From Halichondria panicea (lineage: Eukaryota > Porifera > Demospongiae > Suberitida > Halichondriidae): a stretch of 64,000 nucleotides of DNA. The notes under the pieces are model-generated. The model saw nothing but the letters and a program-made list of their open reading frames with translations, did no database searches and was not told the DNA's origin. Of this stretch, positions 7,055 to 62,586 are shown piece after piece. The position numbers were made by a program, and so were the translations under genes. The DNA lies in NCBI RefSeq assembly GCF_963675165.1, contig NC_087379.1, forward strand, positions 1,001,001 to 1,065,000, in the 5' to 3' direction. Position 1 is the stretch's first letter; every line of letters starts with the position of its first letter.

Positions 7055-10000
7055 TCAAGAAATAGTTGTTGCACTTTTAATTTTGATACTAATTTTATGC
7101 ACGGTAGATTGTGTTTCTCTTTCTTTGTTCCATCCCCCAATCATAAGGCACTCTGTTGGAGACAGTGACACAGAGGCAGCGTCTGCTATAGGAGATGGTA
7201 GATCACCAACGTAGAGCCAGGAGTCCATCGAGGACGAGTAGGAGTAGATCCTTTGAGTGACTTCACCTTCACTATCCTCTCCACCAACAGCAAAGAGGGT
7301 GTCGAATATCGTTACAGGGGAGGAACAGTAAGACGGTGTGTTGGATATTGTATTCCAGACAGAGTCGGCTTTGTTGGCACTCCCATCATCCTGTCGGTCT
7401 GCTGAGATGAGCTTGTCGACTTGAGCAGCACACACCTTGTTTAGAAAATTGCCGTCACTTCCCCCCATTAGGTACACTGTTTTGTTGTAGACAATTCCTC
7501 TTTGGTCATAACAAGCATACGGTAGTCTGTCTGTCTCGCTCCACTGGGAGGTGCTGATGTTGTAGATCTCAACGTTATCAGTGAAGTCGCCATCGTCCAA
7601 CACACCTCCTGCTACGACCAGATGTGTTTGGAGACTAACGACTGCTGGTGAATACCTCGCTGTGGGCATCGGTGGGATCGTCCGTTTCCAGTTCCTTCCT
7701 TTGTTAAACACATGTACCACGTTGGATTTAGAGAAGGATGAATCCAAACCACCAACTGCTGCCAGTTCACCTTTGACCTCTCCTAGACCAAAATAGCGTA
7801 CAGGAAGTCTGGGCAGAGTTGACCAAACATCTTGTGGCGGATCGTAACAGTGGACACAGTACTCGTCATCATCGTCATAACACATTCCTCCACCATAGTA
7901 GACCTTGCCATTGATGGTTATCGCTTGCCCACTAGACATCTTCACTGGAGCCTCAGAGCACTGACTGTAGGACAACTGAACCTGTAGGGACTGGAGAATA
8001 TACAGAGAGTCAATAACTTGTGTGTTGCATGTGATGAATGATGGTTTATTAATTAAGGGAATTTGGAATATAACACTAACCACATGTTAATGCCAGACGA
8101 TAAGGTTACAAGGTTACCATAGCAACAAAACCAGTATCGATACTGTGGGACACAAACTATTCTAATTTGACTCTTATATTGGAGTGGTGATTAGTATACT
8201 GTAACAGAATGATCACAATTGGGTACACGGCTAATTAGCTATAGAATTAATTGTACACATAGACATACATGTACGGATAGCTTCGAGGCTGAGATTGTAC
8301 ACATAGATTACAAGCCACACTATAATACACAACAACTGTCATTCTAATTATCGAGGCATCGCAAAAAAATGAGTTGGCGTTCAATAACAGTAAGCTTTAG
8401 ACTTGGCACTAGCTTCTATTAGGGTGGCAATAGGAGATATGCCTGTGGCTCACTACAATGGGAACAGTAAGTAAGTGACGTACTAACTAAAGGTAGAATC
8501 AATTGAACACATAGCCTGGATTACACGCTGCATTACAACACAGTTTTTCATGCATGACCATCAATTCAATATAAGCTTTAGACTTGGCACTTCTATTGAG
8601 GTAGCGTTATAATAAGAGATATGAGGGTATCATATTTTAGATGTGTGCACTTAGTGGTACAGTGTTGATGAGCTCACCTGTGGTTTGCTGGTCAGGTAGT
8701 CTCTGGTTTTGGTGAGTTGGCCGTTTAAACTCTGAATGGTGGCTTCTTTCTTCTGAAGGGAAGAGTCCTTGGAGGCAAGCATCGAATCTCTGTGAGCGAT
8801 AATAGAGTTTTTGTCAACTAAACAGGCTTGCTCTTGTTCCAGATTTGTTTCCAGTTGAGCTATTTTTGTAGCTTTAGATACAAGCTCGTTGTGAGTGTAG
8901 TTGACGTTGGCAATTTGTTGCTCCACCTCTTCAGTGAGTTGCTTACATTGAGTTTCTAATTCCACTATCCTAGCATTTCTTGAAATAATAAATTCATCTT
9001 TCATGTTAACAATTGTCTCTTTAGCTTCGAGTTGACCTTTAAGATCTTCGTTTTCCAATTTAAATTGATCAGTTTCCACAGAGTGTACCAACTGCATACG
9101 CTCGACAATGTTTTTACTTTCTTCCTCTTGTCGTCTTTTCTCCTCCGCCAGTACCTCGTTTTCTCCAGCTTTCTCCTGGATTGCCGAGTCCTTCCTCACA
9201 ACCTTCTCCTCAAGCTCCCTCTTCTCTGTCAGTAGGGCACTCACTCGCTGGAGCATCTCCACTCTGTTCTCAAAGGAGGGAGGGTGTTCAAGTACCACAC
9301 CCACCATCCGACCAACTATCTCCGCTGCTCTAGGCCTTTGCTGAGGGTTGTTGCTGAGACAGCGCATGATGAGGTCCATCAGAGGGTGGTCTGGGGAAAT
9401 TTTTCGAAGAAACTCTTCACGTCGTTCAGCTTCTGTCATTGGTATCAAACCATTAGGATTAGCAGGATCGATTCTGGTGGGGCCAATACTTGGTAGTGGC
9501 CACTCTGCTGTGAAGGTGTGAATCATCATGATCCCAAAGGAGAACACATCCACACTGGTGTCATAGTGGGGGTTGGCAACCATCACTTCGGGGGGCATGT
9601 ACGCTGGGGTACCAGGGGTCTCCGTCATTCGACTCACTTGAAGGGGGGTCAGGTTCAATATTCGAGCAACCCCTAGATCGGATATCTTGGCAGTCATGTT
9701 GGTGGACAAGAGGACATTGTTGGCTGAGAGATCTCTGTGCACAATGACTGGTGTTTGGCCATGGAGGTAGACCAGGCCCAGTGAGACGTCATGGAGGATA
9801 GAGAAGTTTATCTCATCGGGGAGAATACCGTAGCGCTCGAGACAGCTGGTCAAGTTGGTGGGGAGAAACTCCATGACTAGGATGGGGAACTGAGAGCCTT
9901 CCTCAAAACAGACTCCCAGAAACTGGACAATGTTGGGGTGCCTAGTTTGACTGAGCAGGTGACACTCCTCCAGATACCTTCGTGCTGCATGCCCGATTCC

Positions 10001-10159
10001 AGTCTCGTAGAGAACTCGGTAAAGCTTCTTGCCGGCACATTTCAGTCCTCGATACTCTAGCTCCATGACAACAGCGTAGGAACCATGTCCTAACTCATTC
10101 TCAGTGATGCGAATTTGTCTCAGAGTGAACTGCTCAAAAGCTTGTGGATTTACAGCCAT
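7055..10159 (-). CDS. TKL-like kinase, coiled coil, kelch propeller (KK-A)
   Basis: Exon 10159-8678 (494 codons) splices through CACAG/GTGAGC to exon 7990-7055 in phase, giving about 805 residues. The kinase domain is at about 18-290: Gly loop GHGSYAVV 24-31, Lys44, HRDLSANN 141-148, DLG 161-163 in place of DFG, PPE 189-191. A charged coiled coil covers about 300-490. Six kelch-type repeats follow (YYGGG, AAVGG, VVAGG, YLMGG, FAVGG, LMIGG, each with a later Trp or aromatic). No signal peptide or membrane span is seen, so it is probably cytosolic. I chose the ATG of MAVNPQAF because a TTCACACAG acceptor lies 11 bases before it; the upstream open frame is intronic. A noncoding exon begins at about 10433. 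An alternative acceptor 9 bp downstream would drop Ser-Leu-Gln. Substrate unknown. Confidence 0.85.
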
Positions 10160-10432
10160 TGTCTTGGTTACTGTGTGAATAGAAAAGCATGCAATATGAA
10201 AAAGGTAATCCAGCTGGATATTAAAAAGTGAAGTTATAAAGATTATGTCTTCTTTTAATAGATACTGTGGAATAATAATAGGCAATCCAATTGAAATAGA
10301 AGCAAGTAACAAAAAAAATCCTTTGGCTATGACCTGTGTTATATTGCCAATGTATAGGCCCAGGCTTTAATACAAGAACACATCTGACATGCAGTTATGG
10401 TATGTATATAAAAGCTATTCAGTTGATCTCAC

Positions 10433-10628
10433 CTGTACTGTATAGAAAGCTTGATAGAGGTGAAGTTATGGAGAGAGCTCGTAGCTAGCTAGCTGTAGCT
10501 GTAGCGGCAACAGAAGAAAAAGAGGTCAAGAACGAGATACCCCCCTTCTTTGATGTACATGTAAGCCAAAGGGGGCGTGGCTACTTACAAGGTTTTGTGC
10601 ATTATTTAGAATACCAACTAAGTCAAGG
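10433..10628. promoter_or_regulatory. Shared bidirectional promoter, KK-A / CWF-A
   Basis: The KK-A 5' noncoding exon (donor at 10432/10433) and the CWF-A start codon (10629) face away from each other less than 200 bp apart. AGGGGGCGTGGC at about 10569 is a GC/CACCC-type box. In KK-B and KK-C an opposing box (ACGCCCCC) makes the region palindromic; here that box is degraded to ACCCCCC. Confidence 0.6.
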
Positions 10629-13600
10629 ATGAAAATGTAAGGAGCTAGCTAGGTCTAGTGCAAGTGTACTCACCTAGATCTCCTTCTCCCACTCACTCAG
10701 TCTGGTGTGTGGAGATGTGGAGGGTCACTTCAAGCAACTATTTAGCAGAGTCCAGAGCATCCTCTCCAAGAACAAAGACTTTGAGGTAGCTACATACAAT
10801 GGATGCACACACTCACTGCAGTGCCAGTGCATTTATTGTCCCTTTATGTAGCTGCTGTTGTGTGTTGGATCTTTCTTTAGCTCTGACTGCCAGGAGGAGT
10901 GGAGCAAGTATCGGGAGGGGGTGGAAACAGGTAATTAAACGATATTAAATCACCTTCCTCTGACATTTATTACACCCCCATGCACAGTACCTCTACCAAC
11001 GTTCATCCTTGGCCTGTGTTGAACTGAGCATGGCCAGTTCTATGGAGACTTGTCACGTGATGGAGGAGAGCTTTGCCCCAATGTCACATGTCTAGGTACA
11101 GTGTATGCATGTTGTTAACCACTCTATCAGTACACACATGAGTCACACTCCATTACAGGTCAGCGTGGAGTGTACAGTGCGTCCAGTGGTCTGAGGGTGG
11201 CCTATCTCAGTGGGAGCTACCAGGGGAGGACCTATCAGCATCAAGACAAGGGAGATAATCTATTGGTCAGTTCTCTTCCCAATCACCTGGAGAAGTTGTT
11301 GAACTAGTTTTTGTTTCTCCCTCTAGCGACCATATTTCACTGACTCTGATGTGTCCTGGCTGGAGGGTCAGTGCAGTGGAGAGGGCTACCGTGGAGTGGA
11401 CATTCTCCTCACCTCTGATTGGCCCGGGGCAGTGGACAAGTTCACAGTGGCTCCTGTGAGACCTAGCTCCCAGTTATTGTAGGATGGACCAGTACCTTAA
11501 TAATACCTTATGCTCATGCAGGACGGACTGGACCTGAGTGCAGTGGGGGCAAAGCCTCTGAGTAAACTGGCCATGTGTCTCAAGCCACGCTACCATTTTG
11601 CAGCTCTACACCAAACCTTCTATGAGAGAATACCGTACAGGTACAGTACGTCCATCCCTGTATATTTAGAGTCTGCTAATAACAGGCTGAAAATAAGTAT
11701 ACACTTACGATTTAACATAATTATAATCTGAAAGGCATCTTTCTAAACATTCAGAAAATCAGAAAATGAATGTAATTGACCAACGGAGCTAAAGTTTTGA
11801 CCGTTCAAAAATACTTCATCAAAAATACTTCATTATAATTATACGCACATCTTACATGTCCTCATCTTTATATCCCTACACAGTAATACCTCCACAACTT
11901 TTGATGCTAACTGTATTGTGCTTCATTTCATGCAGGAATCATAAAATCCTCCAAGGCAAGCCACATCATGTGACACGGTTCTTAGCTTTGGCTCAAGTGG
12001 GAAATCCAGACAAGAAGAAAAGAGTGAGTTGAAATCATTCTAGTCCCATTAGTATTACATGTTATTAATGATGACATCATCTTCATACCTGCAGTACCTG
12101 TATGCATTCTCTGTCACACCCATGAGCTCCATGGACGAGAAAGAGCTGACTCAGCAACCACCCACTGCCACCAACTGTCCCTATAGGGATATATAGTTGA
12201 TACACTCAACTAGTCAAATCTTTGGTAAGGAAAACTATTATCCCATAATGTCTAGCTATCGTTGAAGGACCAATATACACATTTTCCTAACAAAACTTGC
12301 GTTATGTAGCACTCTGAGAGTCCTATCTCTAGATATCACCATCTGTGTTGTAGTTCAAATCCTCCATGTTTGCAGAGGTCAAAGTTTATTGTGTACCTAC
12401 TCCCACACACTGTGCAGAGGGAGTCTCAAGAGGAGGCTGGGCCTAACTTCTTCTTTGATCAGAGGGCTCTTGATTCTGCTCATCGCAAACAGAAGAGACA
12501 ACAGGACGGAAGACCCCCTGCAAAGAGACGACCTCCTCCCCAGCCCAGGGGGCCGTGCTGGTTCTGTCTGGGGGGCAAGGAGGTGGAGAAACATATCGTG
12601 GTCTCCATCGGAGATCATGTGAGATAGAGTGTGTTGTACTTGCTAATACTGCACATACAAAATACAATGTAGCTCACAAATAGCAGACCACTAACAGTTT
12701 GTATTGTATACCCTATATAGATGTACCTGGCTTTATCCAAGGGTGGGATGGTACCAGGGCATGTGCTGGTCCTACCCATCGGTCACTATGCAGCCTCCAC
12801 TGACGCACCACCAGTGAGTTCATGTGCTGTGTGTGCCACTGCTGTGTGTGTATAGTCATTGTTTGTATTGTGGAGAGTATGTTTCCATGCTCTGTGTGTA
12901 CTATTTAGCAGTCTGTAGTGGTCAGCCTGTAAGCAGGCCACCCTCTATAATACAGCCAGGTTAATGGGCCCCAAAGTCTCCATAGCATGTGTTTGGACCT
13001 GTGTTAGCAGACCACCTCTTTAGTACAGCCACTGTTGGTCTGCCCACTGTGTAAGCAGAGATCACTATACCATATATCATGCATGTACACTGTATGACCT
13101 GTGCTCTATTACTGTAAGAGGTTTTGGAGGAGCTTGGACAGTTTAAGAGTGCTCTGAGGAAGTGCTTCAACAGCAAAGATCAGTCGTGTGTCATCTTCGA
13201 GAGAAACTACAAATCACAGCATCTTCAACTACAGGTCAGTACCGTCAAGGCCGTATTATCATGTGATGTGATTGATACTGTATGGTTGGTGTGTTGAGAT
13301 TAGGCTACAAGGTTTTGAGGGCAAACAGAGGAATGTGATTTCTCTTGTTAATCATTGAATGGTTCAGGGACTCTTTCAGCTGCCATAACTTGAATTCTGT
13401 GTATTCAATTTCAACGGTTTTATGATTTTAGAAAGAGGCCATCTAGCAAAGATCGTGATATCGGTCTTTGCAATCTTATTTGTGAAGCCATTAGCATTCG
13501 CAAACTTACATAATTATGTTGAAACATTGTATAAATACGGTACATGTTAGTGTGTGTATGGTAGATGTGTTGACTGATAGTTGTGTATGGTTAGTGTGTG

Positions 13601-13797
13601 ATGGTAATGGTGGTCACTGTAGGTTATTCCAGTGACCAAGATTCCATCTGATGCTCTGAGACAAGAAGCCTTCATAGATTATGGGTGGAGTATGGGGGTG
13701 TGGCTTGAGACTGTGCCCAGGGAAACACCACCCTCAGAGGTAACACACACACATCATAGCTGTACCATGTTCTACGTACCATTCTCTAAGCCTTTTA

Positions 13798-14241
13798 TAA
13801 CCTCGATTCCAGGCCGATTAAAATACGGCCTGGTACCTATTGCATGGTGATAGTGCGCATGCGCTAGTTTATTCTCCAGAATCCTTTCTCTCATCTATTT
13901 TCTATCTATGTACATCAGCTTAGTATTGCGTTGTTTCAGAAGGCTTTCACACTAGTCTAAAGTCAGAAGAGGCTCTCATCTACCTCTATGACGGTTGTAT
14001 GGTCAGGCCTTCTAGACCAACACAATAGATGACATAAGCCACAGCTTCACAGAACTCAGTCATGGAGATAAAGTATTACGGAACATTATTATTCTTAGTA
14101 AATGGTATAATTTACGTTCGTAGTACGATTACCCATATTCTGAGTAATTTGAAGGGCATGCACACTATCACCCATGCAATACCAGGCCATATTTTAATGC
14201 GGCCTGTAATCGATGCTAATAAGCGTATAGAATAGTGGCTA
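13798..14241. mobile_element. MITE with TAGCC termini and 9-bp target duplication
   Basis: 444 bp in the intron after exon 13. Imperfect inverted termini of about 60 bp (TAACCTCGATTCCAGGCCG at left, reading TAGCC in other copies; right end ...AGTGGCTA) flank a noncoding core. The 9-bp direct repeat agcctttta lies outside both ends. The termini contain TGCGCATGCGC at 13854. A 9-bp duplication fits Mutator-like elements, but no transposase is present. Related copies: 21836, 35845, 44929, 60532. Confidence 0.8.
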
Positions 14242-14292
14242 AGCCTTTTAGTTATCAATACTTCTCTTTACCAGAATCTATTAGTTTTGCTA

Positions 14293-14448
14293 CACACACA
14301 CCGTCCCTGAGGGCCTCCCACCCACCCCCCCACACACACACACACCCTTCTGAGGGCCTCCCACCCACCTACACACACACACACACCCTTCTGAGGGCCT
14401 CCCACCCACACACACACACACACACACACAGATTGCGTACACTGGTGT

Positions 14449-14510
<62 letters not shown>

Positions 14511-14556
14511 CACACACACACACATATACCCTCCTCCCACACATACACACACAGAT
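14293..14556 (+). repeat. AC microsatellite with 3x gagggcctcccaccca minisatellite
   Basis: Long CA runs are interrupted by three copies of ctgagggcctcccacccac and by a partial duplicate of the next exon's start (cagattgcgtacactggtg at about 14430). It differs by 18 bp of CA repeat from its twin at 36340-36621, the only large difference between the two 15-kb duplicates. Confidence 0.85.
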
Positions 14557-15267
14557 TGCGTACACTGGTGTCCCATAAATTCTGGCAGAGTTTGATGATG
14601 GGGGAAATGTGTTCACAAGACCATTTTCTCACCAACTCACGCAGACAAACAACCAGATCACTGAATATAGGTTATAGTATGTTTCTACTACTGTGAGCTC
14701 ATGAGGTAAACAGCACTCTCAAGTGAGTAGGTAAGAACATATTCGTGAGTCTCGTCACACCGACAATGCACACCTCTAACCTTTCTATTGCATACTCAGC
14801 AAATGTCTCTTCCACAAATCTGTCATCATACCTATCGAGTGAACACACAAACTGTTCTAGTTCCTGGAACAATACGTACGGACGTTTCTCTCTCCAATTT
14901 GGAAGGTAATTAAAAACCAATTAATGACATGTTGAATGCTTTTATTGGTTGCAATATCGGCTGCAGGGAGGTGTTGGCTGCTCCTCTCGTTCTGAATCTG
15001 CCCAATCAGATCAACTGGAAGTCGTGTCTGGCAACAAAGGACGAGGAGACAAAAGCTGCTCTAGAAATAAGGAAAAACTTTGAACCATATTATTTTGATT
15101 TCATATGCAACTGACAACGATGATATTTTCACTTTTACAATTGTTTTGTGTATTAGCTAGTTGTCCAATAATAATTATGGTTGGCCATATATAATATAGT
15201 TATAGGAGTGCAGATCAATATCAGTGGGCAATTATTTTCCTTGTCCCAATGTTGTATTAGAATGCTG

Positions 15268-15345
15268 TCCATGAGCTGGAGGAGGGTAGTTATGCTGACA
15301 TTGCAATAGTCAATAAGGGGGAGGGGCTGGTTGCATGCTATACAC
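15268..15345 (-). pseudogene. 5' scrap of a lost DNAJC25 copy
   Basis: gctgtccatgagctggagga through gaggggctggttgca repeats the sequence just upstream of DNAJC25 copy 1 (about 6921-6992). It sits between a CWF19L1 3' end and a KK 3' end, just where a DNAJC25 gene would be expected in the ancestral unit. The body of the gene is gone. Similar scraps are at 37330 and 61456. Confidence 0.55.
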
Positions 15346-15484
15346 ACATTATATATACCTCTACTTATACTGTAACCTCTACTAGTAATTAGTACCATGC
15401 AAGCTAGTATAACATGTTTCACTCTAGAAAACAATTATCATGAAAATTTGGGTTATTTATAATTTTATAATTATACCAAAACAA

Positions 15485-18338
15485 TTAAGAAATAGTTGTT
15501 GCAGTTCTAATTTTATACACAGTAGATTGTCTTCCTTTGTTACTTCCCCCAATCATGAGGCACTCTGTTGGAGACAGTGACACAGTGGCAAGGTATGCTA
15601 TAGGAGATGGTAGATCACCAACATAGAGCCAGGAGTCCATCGAGGATGAGTAGGCGTAGATCCTTTGAGTGGTTTCACCTTCACTATCCTTACCACCAAC
15701 AGCAAATAGGGTGTCGGATATCGTTACAGGGGAGGGCCGGTAAGACGGTGTGTTGGATATTGTATTCCAGACAGAGTCGGCTTTGTTGGCACTCCCATCA
15801 TCCTGTCGGTCTGCTGAGATGAGCTTGTCGACTTGAGCAGCACACACCTTGTTTAGAAAATTGCCGTCACTTCCCCCCATTAGGTACACTGTTTTGTTGT
15901 AGACAATTCCTCTTTGGTCATAACAAGCATACGGTAGTCTGTCTGTCTCGCTCCACTGGGAGGTGCTGATGTTGTAGATCTCAACATTATTAGTGTATTC
16001 ACCAGAGTCCGCATCTCCTGCTACGATCAGATGTGTTGAGAGACTAACGACTGCTGGTGAATACCTCGCTGTGGGCATGGGTGGGATCGTCCGTTTCCAG
16101 TTCCTTCCTTTGTTAAACACATGTACCACGTTGGATTTAGAGAAGGATGAATCCAAACCACCAACTGCTGCCAGTTCACCTTTGACCTCTCCTAGACCAA
16201 AATAGCGTACAGGAAGTCTGGGCAGAGTTGACCAAACATCTTGTGGCGGATCGTAACAGTGGACACAGTACTCATCATCGTCATCACAGTATCCTCCACC
16301 ATAGTAGACCTTGCCATTGATGGTTACCGCTCGCCCAGTAGACATCTTCACTGGAGCCTCAGAGCACTGACTGTAGGACAACTGAACCTGTAGGGACTGG
16401 AGAATACAGAGAGTCAATAACTTGTGTGTTGCATGTAATGAATTTAAATAAGGGAATGTAATCACATGCAGGTTAACAATGTTATAAGGTTACCATGGCA
16501 ACAAAATTATTATAACAGTATCGATCCTGTGGAACATAATTTTCTGCTATTTAATTTGGCTCTTATATAGGAGTGGTGAATATAGCAGAATATATTCACA
16601 TGCTATAGCTAGCCATTATAATTACAAGCCACACTATAATACACACAGCTACTTTGACGAATTACTGAGCATAGCAAAACAGAATTATAAATTTGAGTTC
16701 AATTGGAACATTAAATAGACTAGGCACATTAGGTTGACTATACAATAAGAGATACGACGGTACAGATGTGTGCACTTAGTGGTGCAGTGTTGATGAGCTC
16801 ACCTGTGGTTTGCTGGTCAGGTAGTCTCTAGTTTTGGTGAGCTGGTCGTTCAAACTCTGAATGGTGGCTTCTTTCTTTTGAAGGGAAGTGTCCTTGGAGG
16901 CAAGCATCAACTCTTGGTGAGCAATAGTCGAATCTTTGTGAGCAATTGTTGAATCTTTGACAGCAATAGTGGAATCTTTTTGAGCGATAATAGAGTTTTT
17001 GTCAGCTTGTTCCTGTTCTAGATGTGTTTCCAGTTGAGCTATTTTCGTAGCTTTAGATACAAGCTCGTTTTGAGTGTAGTTGACGTTGGCAATTTGTTGC
17101 TCCACCTCTTCAGTGAGTTGCTTACATCGAGTTTCTACCTCAGTAATCCTAGCATCTTTGGAGAAAATAAATGCATCTTTCATGTTAACAATTGTCTCTT
17201 TATCTTCGAGTTGACCTTTAAGATCTTCATTCTCCAATTTAAACTGATCAGTTTCCACAGAGTGCACCAACTGCATACGCTCGACAGCATTTTCACTTTC
17301 TTCTTCTTGTCGTCTTTTCTCCTCCGCCAGTGCCTCGTTCTCTCCTGCTTTCTCCTGGATTGCCGAGTCCTTCCTCACAACCTCCTCCTCAAGCTCCCTC
17401 TTCTCTGTCAGTAGGGCACTCACTCGCTGGAGCATCTCCACTCTGTTCTCAAAGGAGGGAGGGTGTTCAAGTACCACACCCACCATCCGACCCACTATCT
17501 CCGCTGCTCTAGGCCTTTGCTGAGGGTTGTTGCTGAGACAGCGCATGATTAGGTCCATCAGAGGGTGGTCTGGGGAAATCTTTAGAAGAAACTCTTCACG
17601 TCGTTCAGCTTCCGTCACTGGTATCAGACCATTGGGATTGGTAGGATCGATTCGTGTCTGGCCGATACTTGGTAGTGGCCACTCTGCTGTGAAGGTGTGA
17701 ATCATCATGATCCCAAAGGAGAACACATCCACACTGGTGTCGTAGTGGGGGTTGGCAACCATCACTTCGGGGGGCATGTACGCTGGGGTACCAGGGGTCT
17801 CCGTCATTCGACTCACTTGAAGGGGGGTCAGGTTCAATATTCGAGCAACCCCCAGATCGGATATCTTGGCCGTCATGTTGGTGGACAAGAGGACATTGTT
17901 GGCTGAGAGGTCTCTGTGCACAATGACTGGTGTTTGGCCATGGAGGTAGACCAGGCCCAGTGAGACGTCATGGAGGATGGAGAAGTTGATCTCATCGGGG
18001 AGAATACCGTAGCGCTCGAGACAGCTGGTCAAGTTGGTGGGGAGGAATTCCATGACTAGGATGGGGAACTGAGAGCCTTCCTCAAAACAGACTCCCAGAA
18101 ACTGGACAATGTTGGGATGCTTAGTTTGACTGAGCAGGTGACACTCCTCCAGATACCTTCGTGCTGCATGCCCGATTCCAGTCTCGTAGAGAACTCGGTA
18201 AAGCTTCTTGCCAGCACATTTCAGTCCTCGATACTCTAGCTCCATGACAACAGCGTAGGAACCATGTCCAAACTCATTCTCAGTGATGCGAACTTGTCTC
18301 AGAGTGAACTGCTCGAAAGCTTGTGGATTTACAGCCAT
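15485..18338 (-). CDS. TKL-like kinase, coiled coil, kelch propeller (KK-B)
   Basis: Exon 18338-16803 (512 codons) joins exon 16396-15485 in phase for about 815 residues. The kinase region is nearly identical to KK-A and keeps the Gly loop (GHGSYAVV), AGKK, HRDLSANN, DLG and PPE. The coiled coil has three extra heptads of the form KDSTIAx. The kelch part shares long blocks with KK-A, but the loops after Gly-Gly differ: YYGGGYCDDDDE against YYGGGMCYDDDDE, VAGDADSGEYTNN against VAGGVLDDGDFTDN, AVGGKDSEGETT against AVGGEDSEGEVT. No stop or frameshift seen. The start is at MAVNPQAF as in KK-A, behind TTCCCACAG. Confidence 0.85.
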
Positions 18339-18400
18339 TGTCTTCGTTACTGTGGGAATAGAAAAGCACGCAATATTAAAAATGCAATCCAGCTGGATAT

Positions 18401-18676
18401 ATAACAAAAAAGAATCCTTTCACTATGTACGTCTAGATATATTAAAATTAATAATTATTGCCAAGACTTGAAAAACAAAGCCTTACAGACAGTGAGGCTC
18501 AGGTTTACAGGACAGCTATTCAGTTGAATAGTTGTTTAATTATAATTATAACAAAAAAGAATCCTTTCACTATGTACGTCTAGATATATTAAAATTAATC
18601 ATTATTGCCAAGACTTGAAAAACAAGGCCTTACAGACAGTGAGGCTCAGGTTTACAGGACAGCTATTCAGTTGATC
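18401..18676. repeat. 147-bp tandem duplication in the KK-B 5' intron
   Basis: ataacaaaaaagaatccttt through gacagctattcagttga occurs at about 18401-18535 and again at about 18548-18676 with few differences. KK-C has only one copy (40499-40620). The duplication lengthens the intron between the noncoding exon and the kinase exon. Confidence 0.8.
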
Positions 18677-22406: not shown

Positions 22407-22584
22407 AGATTCCATCTGATGCTCTGAGACAAGCCTTCATAGATTATGGGTGGAGTATGGGGTGTGGCTTGAGACTGTGCCCAGGGAAACACCACCCTCA
22501 GAGGTAACACACTCACATCATACCTGTACCATGTTCTACGTACCATTCTCTAGGCCTTTTAGTGATCAATACTTGGTTTTGCTA

Positions 22585-22645
22585 CACACACACACACACA
22601 CACCTCTCCTCCCACACCACATGCACACACACACACACACACACT
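22585..22645 (+). repeat. AC microsatellites
   Basis: Two CA/AC runs separated by ctctcctcccacaccacatg, equivalent to those at 537-596. The rest of 22646-23870 repeats the gene-free spacer described for 508-1840. Confidence 0.8.
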
Positions 22646-23925: not shown

Positions 23926-23962
<37 letters not shown>

Positions 23963-24283
23963 CTCCCACACATACACATACACACACATACACTGGTGCC
24001 CATACTTCCTGGCAGAGTTTGATGGGGGAAATGTGTTCACAAGACCATTTTCTCACCAACTCACGCAGACAAACAACCAGATCACTGAATATAGGTTATA
24101 GTATGTTTCTACTACTGTGAGCTCATGAGGTAAACAGCACTCTCAAGTGAGTAGGTAAGAACATATCCATGAGTCTCGTCACACCGACAATGCACACCTC
24201 TAACCTTTCTATTGCATACTCAGCAAATGTCTCTTCCACAAATCTGTCATCCTACCTATCGAGTGAGCACACAAACTGTTCTA

Positions 24284-29007: not shown

Positions 29008-29101
29008 AAAGTCTATAAGGGGGAGGGGCTGGTTGCACTATTTCACTCAAAAATCAACATTAACTTTTAGCCATACAAAATATTATTATCCACAACAATA
29101 A

Positions 29102-32100
29102 TCAAGAAATAGTTGTTGCACTTTTAATTTTGATACTAATTTTATGCACGGTAGATTGTGTTTCTCTTTCTTTGTTCCATCCCCCAATCATAAGGCACTC
29201 TGTTGGAGACAGTGACACAGAGGCAGCGTCTGCTATAGGAGATGGTAGATCACCAACGTAGAGCCAGGAGTCCATCGAGGACGAGTAGGAGTAGATCCTT
29301 TGAGTGACTTCACCTTCACTATCCTCTCCACCAACAGCAAAGAGGGTGTCGAATATCGTTACAGGGGAGGAACAGTAAGACGGTGTGTTGGATATTGTAT
29401 TCCAGACAGAGTCGGCTTTGTTGGCACTCCCATCATCCTGTCGGTCTGCTGAGATGAGCTTGTCGACTTGAGCAGCACACACCTTGTTTAGAAAATTGCC
29501 GTCACTTCCCCCCATTAGGTACACTGTTTTGTTGTAGACAATTCCTCTTTGGTCATAACAAGCATACGGTAGTCTGTCTGTCTCGCTCCACTGGGAGGTG
29601 CTGATGTTGTAGATCTCAACGTTATCAGTGAAGTCGCCATCGTCCAACACACCTCCTGCTACGACCAGATGTGTTTGGAGACTAACGACTGCTGGTGAAT
29701 ACCTCGCTGTGGGCATCGGTGGGATCGTCCGTTTCCAGTTCCTTCCTTTGTTAAACACATGTACCACGTTGGATTTAGAGAAGGATGAATCCAAACCACC
29801 AACTGCTGCCAGTTCACCTTTGACCTCTCCTAGACCAAAATAGCGTACAGGAAGTCTGGGCAGAGTTGACCAAACATCTTGTGGCGGATCGTAACAGTGG
29901 ACACAGTACTCGTCATCATCGTCATAACACATTCCTCCACCATAGTAGACCTTGCCATTGATGGTTATCGCTTGCCCACTAGACATCTTCACTGGAGCCT
30001 CAGAGCACTGACTGTAGGACAACTGAACCTGTAGGGACTGGAGAATATACAGAGAGTCAATAACTTGTGTGTTGCATGTGATGAATGATGGTTTATTAAT
30101 TAAGGGAATTTGGAATATAACACTAACCACATGTTAATGCCAGACGATAAGGTTACAAGGTTACCATAGCAACAAAACCAGTATCGATACTGTGGGACAC
30201 AAACTATTCTAATTTGACTCTTATATTGGAGTGGTGATTAGTATACTGTAACAGAATGATCACAATTGGGTACACGGCTAATTAGCTATAGAATTAATTG
30301 TACACATAGACATACATGTACGGATAGCTTCGAGGCTGAGATTGTACACATAGATTACAAGCCACACTATAATACACAACAACTGTCATTCTAATTATCG
30401 AGGCATCGCAAAAAAATGAGTTGGCGTTCAATAACAGTAAGCTTTAGACTTGGCACTAGCTTCTATTAGGGTGGCAATAGGAGATATGCCTGTGGCTCAC
30501 TACAATGGGAACAGTAAGTAAGTGACGTACTAACTAAAGGTAGAATCAATTGAACACATAGCCTGGATTACACGCTGCATTACAACACAGTTTTTCATGC
30601 ATGACCATCAATTCAATATAAGCTTTAGACTTGGCACTTCTATTGAGGTAGCGTTATAATAAGAGATATGAGGGTATCATATTTTAGATGTGTGCACTTA
30701 GTGGTACAGTGTTGATGAGCTCACCTGTGGTTTGCTGGTCAGGTAGTCTCTGGTTTTGGTGAGTTGGCCGTTTAAACTCTGAATGGTGGCTTCTTTCTTC
30801 TGAAGGGAAGAGTCCTTGGAGGCAAGCATCGAATCTCTGTGAGCGATAATAGAGTTTTTGTCAACTAAACAGGCTTGCTCTTGTTCCAGATTTGTTTCCA
30901 GTTGAGCTATTTTTGTAGCTTTAGATACAAGCTCGTTGTGAGTGTAGTTGACGTTGGCAATTTGTTGCTCCACCTCTTCAGTGAGTTGCTTACATTGAGT
31001 TTCTAATTCCACTATCCTAGCATTTCTTGAAATAATAAATTCATCTTTCATGTTAACAATTGTCTCTTTAGCTTCGAGTTGACCTTTAAGATCTTCGTTT
31101 TCCAATTTAAATTGATCAGTTTCCACAGAGTGTACCAACTGCATACGCTCGACAATGTTTTTACTTTCTTCCTCTTGTCGTCTTTTCTCCTCCGCCAGTA
31201 CCTCGTTTTCTCCAGCTTTCTCCTGGATTGCCGAGTCCTTCCTCACAACCTTCTCCTCAAGCTCCCTCTTCTCTGTCAGTAGGGCACTCACTCGCTGGAG
31301 CATCTCCACTCTGTTCTCAAAGGAGGGAGGGTGTTCAAGTACCACACCCACCATCCGACCAACTATCTCCGCTGCTCTAGGCCTTTGCTGAGGGTTGTTG
31401 CTGAGACAGCGCATGATGAGGTCCATCAGAGGGTGGTCTGGGGAAATTTTTCGAAGAAACTCTTCACGTCGTTCAGCTTCTGTCATTGGTATCAAACCAT
31501 TAGGATTAGCAGGATCGATTCTGGTGGGGCCAATACTTGGTAGTGGCCACTCTGCTGTGAAGGTGTGAATCATCATGATCCCAAAGGAGAACACATCCAC
31601 ACTGGTGTCATAGTGGGGGTTGGCAACCATCACTTCGGGGGGCATGTACGCTGGGGTACCAGGGGTCTCCGTCATTCGACTCACTTGAAGGGGGGTCAGG
31701 TTCAATATTCGAGCAACCCCTAGATCGGATATCTTGGCAGTCATGTTGGTGGACAAGAGGACATTGTTGGCTGAGAGATCTCTGTGCACAATGACTGGTG
31801 TTTGGCCATGGAGGTAGACCAGGCCCAGTGAGACGTCATGGAGGATAGAGAAGTTTATCTCATCGGGGAGAATACCGTAGCGCTCGAGACAGCTGGTCAA
31901 GTTGGTGGGGAGAAACTCCATGACTAGGATGGGGAACTGAGAGCCTTCCTCAAAACAGACTCCCAGAAACTGGACAATGTTGGGGTGCCTAGTTTGACTG
32001 AGCAGGTGACACTCCTCCAGATACCTTCGTGCTGCATGCCCGATTCCAGTCTCGTAGAGAACTCGGTAAAGCTTCTTGCCGGCACATTTCAGTCCTCGAT

Positions 32101-32206
32101 ACTCTAGCTCCATGACAACAGCGTAGGAACCATGTCCTAACTCATTCTCAGTGATGCGAATTTGTCTCAGAGTGAACTGCTCAAAAGCTTGTGGATTTAC
32201 AGCCAT
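29102..32206 (-). CDS. TKL-like kinase, coiled coil, kelch propeller (KK-A')
   Basis: Exons 32206-30725 and 30037-29102 encode a protein identical to KK-A in every residue compared: kinase with GHGSYAVV, AGKK, HRDLSANN, DLG and PPE, then a coiled coil, then six kelch-type repeats. Unlike its neighbours DNAJC25 and CWF19L1 in the same duplicated block, it has no visible lesion. A noncoding exon starts at about 32480. Confidence 0.85.
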
Positions 32207-37405: not shown

Positions 37406-37547
37406 TACACACATTATATACCTCTACTTATACTGTAACCTCTACTAGTAATTAGTACCATGCAAGCTAGTATAACATGTTTCACTCTAGAAAACAATTA
37501 TCATGAAAATTTGGGTTATTTATAATTTTATAATTATACCAAAACAA

Positions 37548-40435
37548 TTAAGAAATAGTTGTTGCAGTTCTAATTTTATACACAGTAGATTGTCTTACAT
37601 TGTTCCATCCCCCAATCATAAGGCACTGTGATGGAGACAGTGACACAGTGGCAGCTCCTGCTATAGGAGATGGTAGATCACCAACGTAGAGCCAGGAGTC
37701 CATCGAGGATGAGTAGGCGTAGATCCTTTGAGTGGCTTCACGTTCACTAACCGCTCCACCAGCAGCAAAGAGGGTGTCGGATATCGTTACAGGGGAGGGA
37801 AGGTAAGACGGTGTGTTGGATATTGTATTCCAGATAGAGTCGGCTTTGTTGGCACTCCCATCATCCTGTCGGTCTGCTGAAATGAGCTTGTCGACTTGAG
37901 CAGCACACACCTTGTTTAGATAATTGCCGTCATATCCCCCCATTAGGTACACTGTGTTGTTGTAGACAATTCCTCTTTGGTAGTAACAAGCATATGGTAG
38001 TCTGTCTGTCTCGCTCCACTGGGAGGTGCTGATGTTGTAGATCTCAACAATATCAATAAAGTTACCAGGGCTCAGCGAACCTCCTGCTACGACCAGATGT
38101 GTTGGGAGACTAACGACTGCTGATAAATGCCTCGCTGTGGGCATGAGTGGGATCGTCTGTTTCCAGTTCCTTCCTTTGTTAAACACATGTACCACGTTGG
38201 ATGTAGAGATGGATGAAATCATACCGCCAACTGCTACCAGTTCAGCTTTGACCTCCCCCAGACCAAAACAGCGTACAGGAAGTCTGGGCAGAGTTGACCA
38301 GACGTCTTGTGGCGGATCGTAACAGTGGACACAGTAATCGTCATCATCGTAATCACAGATTCCTCCACCATAGTAGACCTTGCCATTGATGGTTATCGCT
38401 TGCCCACTAGACATCTTCACTGGAGCCTCAGAGCACTGACTGTAGGACAACTGAACCTGTAGGGACTGGAGAATATACAGAGAGTCAATAACTTGTGTGT
38501 TGCATGTGATGAATGATTGTCTATTAATTAAGGGAATGTAATCACATGCAGGTTAACAATGTTATAAGGTTACCATGGCAACACAATTATTATAACAGTA
38601 TCGATCCTGTGGAACATAATTTTCCGCTTATTATTATATAATTTGGCTCTTATATAGGAGTCGTGATTATAGCAGAATATATTCACATGCTATAGCTAGC
38701 CATTATAATTACAAGCCACACTATAATACACACAGCTACTTTGACGAATTACCGAGCATAGCAAAAACAGAATTATAACTTTGAGTTCAATTGGAACATT
38801 AAATGGACTAGGCACATTAGGTTGACTATACAATAAGAGATACGACGGTACAGATGTGTGCACTTAGTGGTACAGTGTTGATGAGCTCACCTGTGGTTTG
38901 CTGGTCAGGTAGTCTCTAGTTTTGGTGAGCTGGTTGTTCAAACTCTGAATGGTGGCTTCTTTCTTTTGAAGGGAAGTGTCCTTGGAGGCAAGCATCAAAT
39001 CTTTGTGAGCAATAGTCGAATCTTTGTGAGCAATTGTTGAATCTTTGACAGCAATAGTGGAATCTTTTTGAGCGATAATAGAGTTTTTGTCAGCTAAACA
39101 AGCTTGCTCTTGTTCCACTTGTGCAGTGAGATTGGTGACATCTGTTTCCAGTTGAGCTATTTTTGTAGCTTTAGATACAAGCTCGTTGTGAGTGTAGTTG
39201 ACGTTGGCAATTTGTTGCTCCACCTCTTCAGTGAGTTGCTTACATTGAGTTTCTACCTCAGTAATTCTAGCATCTTTCATGTTAACAATTGTCTCATTAT
39301 CTTCGAGTTGACCTTTAAGATTTTCGTTTTCCAATTTCAACTGATCAGTTTCCACGGAGTGCACCAACTGCATACAATCGACAGTGTTTTCACTTTCTTC
39401 CTCTTGTCGTCTTTTCTCCTCCGCCAGTGCCTCGTTCTCTCCTGCTTTCTCCTGGATTGCCGAGTCCTTCCTCACAACCTCCTCCTCAAGCTCCCTCTTC
39501 TCTGTCAGTAGGGCACTCACTCGCTGGAGCATCTCCACTCTGTTCTCAAAGGAGGGAGGGTGTTCAAGTACCACACCCACCATCCGACCCACTATCTCCA
39601 CTGCTCTAGGCCTTCGCTGAGGGTTGTTGCTGAGACAGCGCATGATGAGGTCCATCAGAGGGTGGTCTGGGGTAATCTTTCGAAGAAAATGTTCACGTCG
39701 TTCAGCTTCCGTCACTGGTATCAGTCTGTCAGGATTAGCAGGATCGATTCTGTTGGGGCCGATCTTTGGTAGTGGCCACTCTGCTGTGAAGGTGTGAATC
39801 ATCATGACCCCAAAGGAGAACACATCCACACTGGTGTCGTAGTGGGGGTCGGCAACCATCACTTCGGGGGGCATGTACGCTGGGGTGCCAGGGGTCTCAG
39901 TCATTCGACTCGCTTGAAGGGGGGTGAGGTTCAATATTCGAGCAACCCCCAGATCAGATATCTTGGCCGTCATGTTGGTGGACAAGAGGACATTGTTGGC
40001 TGAGAGGTCTCTGTGCACAATGATTGGTGTTTGGCCATGGAGGTAGACCAGGCCCAGTGAGACGTCATGGAGGATGGAGAAGTTGATCTCATCGGGGAGA
40101 ATACCGTAGCGCTCGAGACAGCTGGTCAAGTTGGTGGGGAGGAACTCCATGACTAGGATGGGGAACTGAGAGCCTTCCTCAAAACAGACTCCCAGAAACT
40201 GGACAATGTTGGGGTGTCTAGTTTGACTGAGCAGGTGACACTCCTCCAGATACCTTCGTGCTGCATGCCCGATTCCAGTATCGTAGAGAACTCGGTAAAG
40301 CTTCTTGCCGGCACATTTCAGTCCTCGATACTCTAGCTCCATGACAACAGCGTAGGAACCTCGTCCAAACTCATTCTCAGTGATGCGAACTTGTCTCAGA
40401 GTGAACTGCTCGAAAGCTTGTGGATTTACAGCCAT
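37548..40435 (-). CDS. TKL-like kinase, coiled coil, kelch propeller (KK-C)
   Basis: Exons 40435-38891 (515 codons) and 38465-37548 give about 820 residues. The kinase is intact: Gly loop GRGSYAVV (His to Arg), AGKK, HRDLSANN, DLG, PPE. The coiled coil keeps three KDSTIAx heptads and adds TDVTNLTAQVEQ. Kelch loops are again distinct: YYGGGICDYDDDDY, AVGGMISSISTSN, VAGGSLSPGNFIDI, MGGYDGNYLN, AAGGAVSEREAT. Pre-blade loops also differ (TARHLSAVV, ACYYQRG, PIAGAAT). The frames around them are the same as in KK-A and B. Start chosen at MAVNPQAF as elsewhere. Confidence 0.85.
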
Positions 40436-57417: not shown

Positions 57418-57556
57418 GTGGCGTAGGAAGCAATTTCTCAATGGGGGAGGGGGTGTAGTTTTTTTAATGGATAAGTGTAAGGCTATCTACATAGTACAGC
57501 TTGGATAAGTCATCTCTACTTAGAAATATGGGGGGGGGTCTCGATCCAGCCACTGC
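57418..57556. mobile_element. Small hAT-like MITE (CAGTGGC termini)
   Basis: Begins CAGTGGCGTAGGAAGC and ends TCGATCCAGCCACTG, with a G-run inside. It lies in the intron remnant of the KK-D fragment. The left half recurs at 63657. Confidence 0.6.
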
Positions 57557-57587
57557 ACTTATAGTGGTACAGTGTTGATGAGCTCAC

Positions 57588-57868
57588 CTGTGGTTTGCTG
57601 GTCAGGTAGTCCCTGGTTTTGGTGAGTTGGTTGTTTAAACTCTGAATGGTGGTTTTATTCTTCTGAAGGGAAGTGTCCTTGGAGGCAAGCATCGAATCTT
57701 TGGAAAAAATAGTTGATACTTTATCAGCAATGGTCAAATCTTTTTCAGCAATAACTCTTTGCTCTTGTTCCACTTGTGCAGTGAGATTGGTGACATCTGT
57801 TTCCAGTTCAGCTATTTTCGTAGCTTTAGATACAAGCTCGTTGTGAGTGTTGGCAATTTGTTGCTCCA
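57588..57868 (-). pseudogene. Coiled-coil fragment of a kinase-kelch gene (KK-D)
   Basis: Encodes QQIANTHNELVSKATK through NNQLTKTRDYLTSKPQ and ends at the same CACAG/GTGAGC donor as other KK genes. The kinase domain, promoter and kelch exon are all missing. Its upstream edge is fused in the middle of the coiled coil to CWF19L1 exon 5 at about 57868. Confidence 0.85.
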
Positions 57869-60800
57869 GCGTGGAGTGTACAGTGCGTCTAGTGGTCTGA
57901 GGGTGGCCTATCTCAGTGGGAGCTACCAGGGGAGGACCTATCAGCATCAAGACAAAGGAGATAATCTATTGGTCAGTTCTCTTCCCAATCACCTGGAGAA
58001 GTTGTTGAACTAGTTTTTGTTTCTCCCTCTAGCGACCATATTTCACTGACTCTGATGTGTCCTGGCTGGAGGGTCAGTGCAGTGGAGAGGGCTACCGTGG
58101 AGTGGACATTCTCCTCACCTCTGATTGGCCCGGGGCAGTGGACAAGTTCACAGTGGCTCCTGTGAGACCTAGCTCCCAGTTATTGTAGGATGGACCAGTA
58201 CCTTAATAATACCTTATGCTCATGCAGGACGGACTGGACCTGAGTGCAGTGGGGGCAAAGCCTCTGAGTAAACTGGCCATGTGTCTCAAGCCACGCTACC
58301 ATTTTGCAGCTCTACACCAAACCTTCTATGAGAGAATACCGTACAGGTACGTTCAGTATGCTCACCTGCATTATTAGTGTCAGCTCTTTAAATAGAGTTC
58401 TGTTGGTACAATTTCTTGATTTTTTGAGTCCGTTCAGGCCATTGTCAAAACTGGTTGAAAATAATTAACACATCATCTGAAAGGCATCTCTCTACATGTA
58501 TGTCTGAAAATGAATGTGATTGGACCAACAGAACTTAAAGTTTTGACTGTTCGAAGATACTTCATTTAACGCTTGTAATTATACGTACATGTTACATGTC
58601 CTCATCTTTAAATCCCTACACAGTAATACCTCCACAACTTTTGATGCTAACTGTATTGTGCTTCATTTCATGCAGGAATCACAAAATCCTCCAAGGCAAG
58701 CCACATCATGTGACACGATTCTTAGCTTTGGCTCAAGTGGGAAATCCAGACAAGAAGAAAAGAGTGAGTTGAAATCATTCTAGTCCCATTAGTATTACAT
58801 GTTATTAATGATGACATCATCTTCATACCTGCAGTACCTGTATGCATTCTCTGTCACACCCATGAGCTCCATGGACGAGAAAGAGCTGACTCAGCAACCA
58901 CCCACTGCCACCAACTGTCCCTACACTGAACTAGTCAAATTTTTGGTAAGGAAAACTATTATCCCATAATGTCTATGTAGCTATCGTTGAAGGGCCAATA
59001 TACCAATTTTCCAAACAAGACTTGCGTTATGTAGCACTCTGAGAGTCCTATCTCTAGATATCACCATTTGTGTTGTAGTTCAAATCCACCATGTTTGCAG
59101 AGGTCAAAGTTTATTGTGTACCTACCCCACACACTGTGCAGAGGGAGTCTCAAGAGGAGGCTGGGCCTAACTTCTTCTTTGACAAGAGGGCTCTTGATTT
59201 TGCTCATCGCAAACAGAAGAGACAACAGGACGGAGGACCCCCTGCAAAGAGACGACCCCCTCCCCAGCCCAGGGGACCGTGCTGGTTCTGTCTGGGGGGC
59301 AAGGAGGTGGAGAAACATCTCGTGGTCTCCATCGGAGATCATGTGAGATAGAGTGTGTTGTACTTGCTAATACTGCACATACAAAATACAATGTAGCTCA
59401 CAAATAGCAGACCACTAACAGTTTGTATTGTATACCCTATATAGACGTACCTGGCTTTATCCAAGGGTGGGATGGTACCAGAGCATGTGCTGGTCCTACC
59501 CATCGGTCACTATGCAGCCTCCACTGACGCACCACCAGTGAGTTCATGTGCTGTGTGTACCACTGCTGTGTGTGTATAGTCATTGTTTGTATTGTGGAGA
59601 GTATGTTTCCATGCTCTGTGTGTACTATTTAGCAGTCTGTAGTGGTCAGCCTGTAAGCAGGCCACCCTCTATAATACAGCCAGGTTAATGGGCCCCAAAG
59701 TCTCCATAGCATGTGTTTGGACCTGTGTTAGCAGACCACCTCTTTAGTACAGCCACTGTTGGTCTGCCCACTGTGTAAGCAGAGATCACTATACCATATA
59801 TCATGCATGTACACTGTATGACCTGTGCTCTATTACTGTAGGAGGTTTTGGAGGAGCTTGGAAAGTTTAAGAGTGCTCTGAGGAAGTACTTCAACAGCAA
59901 AGATCAGTCGTGTGTCATCTTCGAGAGAAACTACAAATCACAGCATCTTCAACTACAGGTCAGTACCGTCAAGGCCGTATTATCATGTGATGTGATTGAT
60001 ACTGTATGGTTGGTGTGTTGAGATTAGGCTACAAGGTTTTGAGGGCAAACAGAGGAATGTGATTTCTCTTTTTATGGTTCAGGGACTCTTTCAGCTGCCA
60101 TAACTTGAATTCTGTGTATTCAATTTCAACGGTTTTATGATTAATTTTCATCTAAAAGAGATCATGATGTCATTCCAAGAACCAATATAGATCTTTGAAA
60201 TCTTATTTGTGAAGCCATTAGCATTCGCAAACTTACATAATTATGTGGAAACATTGTATAAATACGGTACATGTTAGTGTGTGTATGGTAGATGTGTTGA
60301 CTGATAGTTGTGTATGGTTAGTGTGTGATGGTAATGGTGGTCACTGTAGGTTATTCCAGTGACCAAGATTCCATCTGATGCTCTGAGACAAGCCTTCATA
60401 GATTATGGGTGGAGTATGGGGGTGTGGCTTGAGACTGTGCCCAGGGAAACACCACCCTCAGAGGTAACACACACACATCATAGCTGTACCATGTTCTACG
60501 TACCATTCTCTAAGCCTTTTATAGCCTCGATTCTAGGCCGATTAAAATACGGCCTGGTACCTATTGCATGGTGATAGTGCGCATGCGCTAGTTTATTCAC
60601 CAGAATCCTTTCTCTCATCTATGTTCTATCTATGTACATCAGCTTAGTATTGCGTTGTTTCAGAAGGCTTTCACACTAGTCTAAAGTCAGAAGAGGCTCT
60701 CATCTACCTCTATGACGGTTGTATGGTCAGGATGTCTTACCTTAGATCTGTACAGTCTATGGGAAGTGTATGGTGCCTCTTGACTTCTACTTGCGAAGAC

Positions 60801-61281: not shown

Positions 61282-61455
61282 ACTGACAACGATGATTAAT
61301 TTCTTTATTTTCACTTTTACTTTTGTATAATTGACGTTTTGTGTATTAGCTAGTTGTCCAATAATAATTATGGTTGGCCATATATATTATATAGTTATAG
61401 GAGTGCAGATCAATATCAGTGGGCAATTATTTTCCTTGTCCCAATGTTGTATTAG

Positions 61456-61530
61456 AATGCTGTCCATGAGGGTAGTTATGCTGACATTGCAATAGTCAAT
61501 AAGGGGGAGGGGCTGGTTGCATGCTATACA
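61456..61530 (-). pseudogene. 5' scrap of a lost DNAJC25 copy
   Basis: gctgtccatgagggtagtta with gaggggctggttgcatgcta again sits between a CWF19L1 3' end and a kelch 3' end. Confidence 0.5.
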
Positions 61531-61668
61531 CACATTATATACCTCTACTTATACTGTAACCTCTACTAGTAATTAGTACCATGCAAGCTAGTATAACATG
61601 TTTCACTCTAGAAAACAATTATCATGAAAATTTGGGTTATTTATAATTTTATAATTATACCAAAACAA

Positions 61669-62586
61669 TTAAGAAATAGTTGTTGCAGTTCTAATTTTAT
61701 ACACAGTAGATTGTCTTCTTTTGTTACTTCCCCCAATCATAAGGCACTGTGATGGAGACAGTGACACAGTGGCAGCGTATGCTATAGGAGATGGTAGATC
61801 ACCAACGTAGAGCCAGGAGTCCATCGAGGATGAGTAGGCGTAGATCCTTTGAGTGGCTTTATGTTCACTATTCACTCCACCAACAGCAAAGAGGGTGTCG
61901 GATATCGTTACAGGGGAGGGCCGGTAAGACGGTGTGTTGGATATTGTATTCCAGACAGAGTCGGCTTTGTTGGCACTCCCATCATCCTGTCGGTCTGCTG
62001 AGATGAGCTTGTCGACTTGAGCAGCACACACCTTGTTTAGATTCTTGTCGTCATATCCCCCCATTAGGTACACTGTGTTGTTGTAGACAATTCCTCTTTG
62101 GTCACGACAAGCATACGGTAGTCTGCCTGTTTCGCTCCACTGGGAGGTGCTGATGTTGTAGATCTCAACATTATCAGTGCAGTCACGAGAGCCCAACACA
62201 CCTCCTGCTACGACTAGATGTGTTGGGAGACTAACGACTGCTGGCCACATCCTCGCTGTGGGCATGGGTGGGATCGTCTGTTTCCATGTCTTTCTTTTGT
62301 TAAACACATGTACCACGTTGGATGTAGAGAAGGGTAAATCCAGACCACCAACTGCTACCAGTTCACCTTTGACCTCCCCTAGACCAAAATATCGTACAGG
62401 AAGTCTGGGCAGAGTTGACCAGACGTCTTGTGGCGGATCGTAACAGTAGACACAGTGCTTGTCATCATCGTCATAACAGAATCCTGCACCATAGTAGACC
62501 TTGCCATTGATGGTTACCGCTAGTCCCTCAGACATCTTCACTGGAGCCTCAGAGCACTGACTGTAGGACAACTGAACCTGTAGGGA
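61669..62586 (-). pseudogene. Orphan kelch exon of a kinase-kelch gene (KK-E)
   Basis: One open exon of 306 codons including stop, starting at the usual CTCCAG acceptor (SLQVQLSYSQCSEAPVKM) and ending ATTIS. Kelch repeats are complete with a fourth loop set: YYGAGFCYDDDDKH, AVGGLDLPFSTSN, VAGGVLGSRDCTDN, MGGYDDKNLN, AVGGVNSEHKAT; TARMWPAVV and ACRDQRG before blades. No kinase exon appears up to 64000; homology of the upstream intron ends at about 63760 inside a MITE. It may continue beyond the window, but a plus-strand exon at 63867 argues against it. Confidence 0.7.

Follow-up and report, generated by a model that had tools for sequence, protein, structure and literature searches.

We analysed a 64,000-nucleotide stretch of the genome of the sponge Halichondria panicea (assembly GCF_963675165.1, contig NC_087379.1, positions 1,001,001 to 1,065,000), referred to here as the window and corresponding to C3:1001001-1065000 of a 131 Mb assembly in 39 contigs. 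Its minus strand carries five kelch exons (A, B, C, D and E) of a multigene family coding for proteins that join a protein kinase to a kelch propeller. The propeller keeps a conserved framework and purifying selection acts on the kinase; diversifying selection, evident both in this family and in a second, deeply separated one, acts on residues around the propeller face lined by the b-c and d-a loops. With the Gly-Gly of a blade as reference, these residues are at -15, -14, +1 and about +3 to +7. Overall, these genes probably constitute a germline-encoded recognition repertoire, in which a hypervariable kelch face would be combined with a constant, TKL-like kinase output.

Gene A gave a clean model of two exons, of 494 and 311 codons, joined in phase 0. 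The upstream exon matched Pfam Pkinase, and the kelch exon matched several Pfam Kelch models, with a Gly-Gly present in all six kelch blades. AlphaFold (AF2) modelled the kelch exon as a six-bladed propeller, with a mean predicted local distance difference test score (pLDDT) of 69 and a predicted template modelling score (pTM) of 0.76; structures in the PDB matching this model included NS1-BP, designed SAKe propellers and the KEAP1 kelch domain. As the closest solved kinase structures were those of CTR1 and TNNI3K, the kinase appears to be TKL-like, an assignment made by best hits rather than from a kinase tree. The kinase set comprised 32 distinct sequences out of 37 long matches, after four without the start motif and one duplicate had been dropped, shorter or broken matches being left unused. 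Catalytic motifs were retained in 31 to 32 of these 32 first-family kinases, and DLG replaced DFG in all 32. Neither BTB nor BACK was found in the upstream exon of A, which returned kinase models alone at E<=0.001, and neither NACHT nor LRR was found by Pfam in the exons tested. No signal peptide or transmembrane stretch was seen by eye past the conserved ATG, no predictor being run and upstream exons not being excluded. The proteins are apparently cytosolic and run from a TKL-like kinase through a long coiled coil to a six-bladed kelch propeller at the C terminus.

Genome-wide, 51 full-length kelch exons showed at least 75% identity to A, one of them with an in-frame stop; 50 were located on C3 (45 at 0.87-1.72 Mb) and the last on C16. 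For the kinase exon, 52 full-length copies reached 88% identity or more, two of them with an in-frame stop. The second family, which shares about 32% identity with the first, was found on C1, C6, C28 and C12 and has at least 134 copies, since all 134 scored candidates (of 462) matched at 79% or above; one carried an in-frame stop. The two families together therefore account for at least 185 full-length kelch copies, two with an in-frame stop. In the second-family gene interval that was read, a kinase exon was located upstream of the kelch exon, its identity to the kinase of A being 45% over 183 residues, and an upstream exon judged by eye to be coil-like was also present.

Selection on the first family was examined in an alignment of 50 kelch exons, 49 of which were distinct (C was dropped as a duplicate of A). 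Rows L023 (partial), L024 (50% identity), L027 (in-frame stop), and L049 and L050 (distant) were left out, as were other partial, split or more distant rows. Codons were scored using a home-made, FUBAR-like test, with P(dN>dS)>0.9 taken as positive. Strict loop classes were obtained from DSSP of the AF2 model, and the extended face, which adds the strand ends, was delimited once the first site result was known. The framework proved nearly invariant, with a few highly variable positions per blade that showed up to 15 residues. Positive codons numbered 38 of 311, and 105 had dN<dS. The sequence-only reading had expected dN>dS sites in the b-c and d-a loops, and it is there that they were found: 28 of 82 codons were positive, versus 2 of 54 in the a-b and c-d loops (Fisher p=1.2e-5), in a comparison among paralogues rather than alleles. 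Of the remaining positives, six were no more than two residues away from where strand a starts or strand b ends, on the border of the same face, and two were in the tail. When the site pattern was shifted circularly 300 times, no shift placed 28 positives in the face loops (maximum 27). The variable sites are not spread evenly over the structure.

Estimates of omega (the dN/dS ratio) by region gave 4.5 for the 18 codons at -15, -14 and +1, 2.07 for the face, 0.79 for the opposite face, 0.53 for the strands and 0.65 for the coil. The kinase domain is constrained, with an omega of 0.34, and no kinase codon showed more than four residues, which bears out the constancy of kinase output proposed from the letters of the window. 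Three coil codons showed six or more residues. All 22 first-family codons with at least eight amino acids lay within or bordering the b-c/d-a face, and 48 distinct 18-residue signatures were found among the 49 exons. Recent change followed the same pattern, 26 of 41 replacements in the six youngest pairs being on the face, against 34% expected (p=1e-4). Residues at the three main registers were rich in Tyr (17%), Ser (12%) and Arg (10-11%), a mixture typical of antibody paratopes.

KEAP1 offers an external reference for these positions, as its ligand contacts are known; most of those used here were taken from PMC6891428, and they include S363, N414, S508, S555, R415, A556, Y525, Y572, R483, Q530 and F577. 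The KEAP1 sequence was confirmed and offsets were computed from it, S602 being the contact that could not be given a register. The contacts fall at register -15 (S363, N414, S508 and S555), -14 (R415 and A556), +1 (R380, Y525 and Y572), +3 (N382) and +6 (R483, Q530 and F577). Among these, R380 and N382, which the same paper gives in the form of counts, are residues we take to be contacts. This register set was chosen after the first result, from the KEAP1 contacts and not from variability in the kinase-kelch exons. In each family all six blades were positive at register +1, and all six also at -15 and/or -14. The hypervariable registers are those of KEAP1 ligand contact in all six blades of both families, and the proposal that the variable face is the Keap1 ligand face was supported in two families tested separately. 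The second-family sample consisted of 20 copies, 19 on C1 and one on C6, from a total of at least 134, and, analysed alone, gave 32 positive codons of 296, with 23 of 81 in the b-c/d-a class and 2 of 49 in the a-b/c-d class. Thirty of these positives could be aligned to the first family, and 23 coincided with first-family positives (p=4e-19). Diversification affects corresponding positions in two families with about one third of their residues in common.

The tree-based site test could not be trusted by itself, owing to exchange between paralogues and to positives in a control described below, and was therefore supplemented with pairwise, per-blade and number-of-states tests. Proportions of replacement (pN) and silent (pS) differences were calculated for 18 sister pairs of the first family and six pairs of the second, trees being used for the choice of pairs only. 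For the 30 codons at Keap1 registers, pN/pS was 1.77 (95% interval 1.36-2.49) in the first family and 2.65 (1.85-5.36) in the second, while opposite-face loops gave 0.53 and 0.63 and strands 0.42 and 0.49, respectively. When all 1176 first-family pairs were used, pN/pS was 1.34 for b-c loops, 1.27 for d-a loops with strand starts, 0.66 for a-b and c-d loops and 0.48 for other strand codons. First-family pN was 0.228 at the registers versus 0.028 in the strands (about 8-fold), whereas pS was 0.129 versus 0.066 (about 2-fold), so that genome-wide silent changes are not clustered to the same degree as amino-acid changes. Trees built separately for each blade returned 37 positives of 106 face codons, 4 of 54 on the opposite face and 7 of 126 in strands; omegas estimated per blade were discarded, as the optimiser remained stuck at its start value of 1. 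Against simulated neutral rates of 1, 1.5 and 2, the number of residues exceeded the 99.9th percentile at 18, 12 and 10 of the 311 first-family codons. 

Several observations weigh against diversifying selection on the face, or against a recognition repertoire. Minimum-step counting, a conservative measure, gave for the whole face a ratio of only 0.90 in the first family, or 1.15 without codons seen once, and 1.41 in the second, compared with 0.40-0.56 for strands and opposite loops. In the 20-copy second set, the 99.9th percentile of residue number under the same simulated rates was exceeded at only 9, 3 and 2 of 296 codons. Silent change is likewise raised at the registers of the second family (pS 0.109 versus 0.070 in strands, 1.6-fold); with pS raised in both families, part of the excess may reflect local mutation, multiple hits or older divergence that has been kept. 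The kinase exon, used as an internal control, returned 15 'positive' codons of 497. Ten of these were inspected: eight, drawn from the 11 kinase-domain positives, showed two or three states, and two in the coil showed five and about eight, which indicates that the tree-based site test yields false positives. Exchange between paralogues is so heavy that trees are unreliable and single-tree results only indicative. In the window alone, 44 of 70 amino-acid-variable codons among four distinct paralogues were on the b-c/d-a face, which makes up 106 of 301 propeller codons, but so were 13 of 27 silent-variable codons (Fisher p=0.25). The selection first proposed from these paralogues is hence recovered in the 49-sequence genome-wide set and not from the window, where silent changes cluster on the face too and four paralogues are too few. 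Lastly, the AF2 model was built from four window sequences and was the one good model of five, and the linkage of the second family to a kinase rests on one gene read.

That exposed loops merely drift under relaxed constraint would agree with the tolerance of propeller loops to change and with the location of the variable codons in loops. In the a-b and c-d loops, however, pairwise pN/pS stays low (0.53 and 0.63), and the lower limits for the face registers exceed 1 in both families. No false positives arose among 311 codons simulated under purifying and neutral rates, and extreme block shuffling produced 6 of 91 at neutral codons and 0 of 220 at constrained ones; the 0 of 91 neutral positives, or 6 of 91 with extreme shuffling, are to be set against the 28 of 82 face-loop codons that were positive in the data. 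We consider drift of this kind barely credible. The idea that recombination created a spurious selection signal in a single-tree analysis appears equally far-fetched. It draws on the kinase control and on the two or three states of the eight kinase-domain positives inspected there, but the pairwise counts are tree-free beyond the choice of pairs, all 1176 pairs agree with them, and the per-blade trees agree as well. Moreover, 8-15 residues per site could not be generated by shuffling two states, and only 2 of 311 shuffled simulated codons attained eight residues.

Exchange between paralogues could also have a more direct role, if local hypermutation or targeted gene conversion wrote the face variation with little selection. 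Two-state sites in first-family kelch exons are near linkage equilibrium, with a mean r2 of 0.02-0.04 at all distances and of 0.04 even within 30 bases, and all four gametes were found in 897 of 1540 site pairs, which suggests intense exchange between paralogues; r2 in the kinase falls with distance, and the second family has too few sites. The rise in register pS in both families, about 2-fold and 1.6-fold, would be expected under this explanation. Mutation or conversion alone should nevertheless yield a pN/pS of about 1 or below and not 1.8-2.7, and the codons hit occur singly or in short runs, scattered but recurring at particular structural registers in two families of about 32% identity, making this origin very improbable. 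A more serious competitor, although still an unlikely one, is endogenous wiring, in which each kelch face would recruit a different host substrate and selection after duplication would have split the specificities, giving substrate adaptors rather than non-self sensors. PMC6891428 describes Keap1 recruiting endogenous Nrf2 via the same face, and the same molecular anatomy would result. Yet 48 of 49 signatures are distinct and the youngest pairs change mainly on the face, while at least 185 copies with up to 15 residues per site seem beyond the needs of stable wiring.

Returning to the recognition repertoire, we propose that the b-c/d-a face would bind a ligand which, by analogy with Keap1, is probably a short protein motif, that the coiled coil may dimerise or cluster the protein, and that ligand binding or clustering would turn the kinase on, so that many specificities could feed one output. 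The raw variation comes from tandem duplication, point substitution and frequent paralogue exchange, and the likeliest pressure would be recognition of changing targets, such as microbial proteins or self/non-self determinants. It is from this pattern that we infer a sensor or recognition system, as the sequence-only reading did, with a putative ligand and a possible immune or allorecognition role. We regard as evenly poised the stronger claim that the genome has an innate counterpart of the antibody repertoire, with a kelch propeller as its scaffold. Almost every one of at least 185 germline copies would present its own ring of about 18-30 residues, at three to five per blade, around the propeller mouth; the copies would be reshuffled by paralogue exchange and wired to one type of intracellular kinase, for pathogen sensing or self/non-self recognition, and the same solution would be kept in two deeply separated families.

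All genes of the window discussed here lie on the minus strand. The kelch exon of gene A (six-bladed propeller, 311 codons) occupies 7055..7990, with the acceptor ...TTCTCCAG/TCC at 7990, and its kinase and coiled-coil exon (494 codons) occupies 8678..10159, with a probable ATG at 10159 and the donor CAG/GTGAGC at 8678 in phase 0. Codons 19-20 of gene A (7931..7936), in the d-a loop of blade 1, exemplify a hypervariable pair at registers -15/-14; codon 36 (7883..7885), the first residue past the Gly-Gly of blade 1 (register +1), shows 13 amino acids among 49 paralogues. Gene B comprises a kelch exon at 15485..16396 and a kinase and coiled-coil open frame at 16776..18338, with an ATG at 18338 and a low end that is the stop of the frame and overshoots the donor. 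Gene C is a tandem copy with a protein identical to that of A (kelch exon 29102..30037; kinase and coiled-coil open frame 30698..32206, its protein also that of A). Gene D comprises a kelch exon at 37548..38465 and a kinase and coiled-coil open frame at 38864..40435, with an ATG at 40435. The kelch exon of gene E occupies 61669..62586, and the nearest upstream kinase exon is outside the window, at C3:1067684-1068526. An orphan coiled-coil fragment of a kinase exon is located at 57516..57965, with no adjoining kelch exon found in the window. The strings on which the sequence-only reading had based its case are all present: VLDDGDFTDN, EDSEGEV, YSP, YDQ and DAA in A (7055-7990); DADSGEYTNN, KDSEGET, YSP, YDQ and YLA in B (15485-16396); SLSPGNFIDI, AVSEREA, HLS, YYQ and GAA in D, the gene it had called KK-C (37548-38465); and VLGSRDCTDN, VNSEHKA, MWP, RDQ and YAA in E (61669-62586).

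Genes A and C lie inside a tandem duplication (505-18527 versus 22553-40620, offset about 22 kb). Over 505-15499 the units differ by 15 mismatched aligned bases and 25 gap columns, and over 15500-18499, where B in one unit is compared with D in the other across both the kelch and the kinase exon, by 149 mismatches (about 5%). This break in divergence at the 3' end of the kelch exon suggests that crossover or conversion gave the units different kelch genes, and the duplication would represent recent growth of the array with such an event at the kelch gene. An intergenic repeat of up to about 2.3 kb and about 95% identity occurs at 11723-14007, 20040-21835, 33770-36054, 43382-45449 and 58472-60731. 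A Bcl-2-like gene (Pfam Bcl-2) is present at 3296-3886 and 25343-25933 on the minus strand; further Bcl-2-like copies and fragments are interspersed in the kinase-kelch cluster at C3:0.86-1.64 Mb, and a more distant copy is on C13. These interleaved copies, which may be passengers or functional partners, would fit a cell-death output of the kinase-kelch proteins without showing one. Within the kinase, one codon of the glycine-rich loop (P-loop; beta 11) was dropped as a candidate, being a two-state His/Arg dimorphism; it is codon 20 of the trimmed alignment, with the two states in 17 and 15 of 32 sequences and spread over the copies. Further kinase families, about 37-46% identical to the first-family kinase, were observed on C11, C16, C10 and C1:3-5 Mb, and kelch exons adjoin kinases at C11:6.16, C11:6.29, C10:2.21 and C17:2.19 Mb.

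Comparison with known systems shows separate elements of the kinase-kelch proteins in several of them. KEAP1 and KLHL proteins carry BTB-BACK and act with Cul3. They share the six-bladed kelch fold with the kinase-kelch family, whose hypervariable registers match the contact registers of KEAP1. The kinase-kelch proteins differ in that a kinase and a coiled coil accompany the propeller, and in a face that varies strongly over scores of paralogues. TKL kinases include RIPK and IRAK. The first-family kinase resembles CTR1/RAF-like members in its Pfam Pkinase match and its solved relatives, CTR1 and TNNI3K, and differs from TKL kinases in its fusion to a coiled coil and a kelch propeller and in having DLG instead of DFG in 32 of 32 sequences. 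NLR repertoires are large and germline-encoded, with a recognition part and a signalling part. Amphimedon has 135 NLR genes, a figure quoted in PMC6208332. The kinase-kelch family would likewise be a large germline repertoire with recognition and signalling parts; unlike NLRs, it uses a propeller as scaffold and a kinase domain as output, NACHT and LRR not having been found in the exons tested. The same paper, a study of two sponges, lists two kelch-motif genes with negative fold values after exposure to microbial patterns. The nearest evolutionary parallel is provided by the F-box and MATH adaptor families of C. elegans, which, according to PMC5392922, which cites earlier work, are greatly expanded and have positively selected sites in the substrate-binding domain. 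Expansion and a selected binding domain are common to both, but those proteins are ubiquitin-ligase adaptors with other binding domains, whereas here a kelch propeller is fused to a kinase.

Among the papers listed by full-text searches of open-licence PubMed Central articles, and judged by titles and the starts of abstracts, there was no account of such a kinase-kelch family. To our knowledge, few repertoires vary a binding face while holding the scaffold constant: antibodies, VLRs, NLRs and SRCRs, as well as the MATH/F-box adaptors on the evidence of PMC5392922. A kinase-fused kelch propeller would add to them a recognition scaffold whose ligand geometry is known from KEAP1, so that specificity-determining residues could be named beforehand. 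The way in which an animal presumed to be without adaptive immunity detects microbes or kin within its cells would become open to test.

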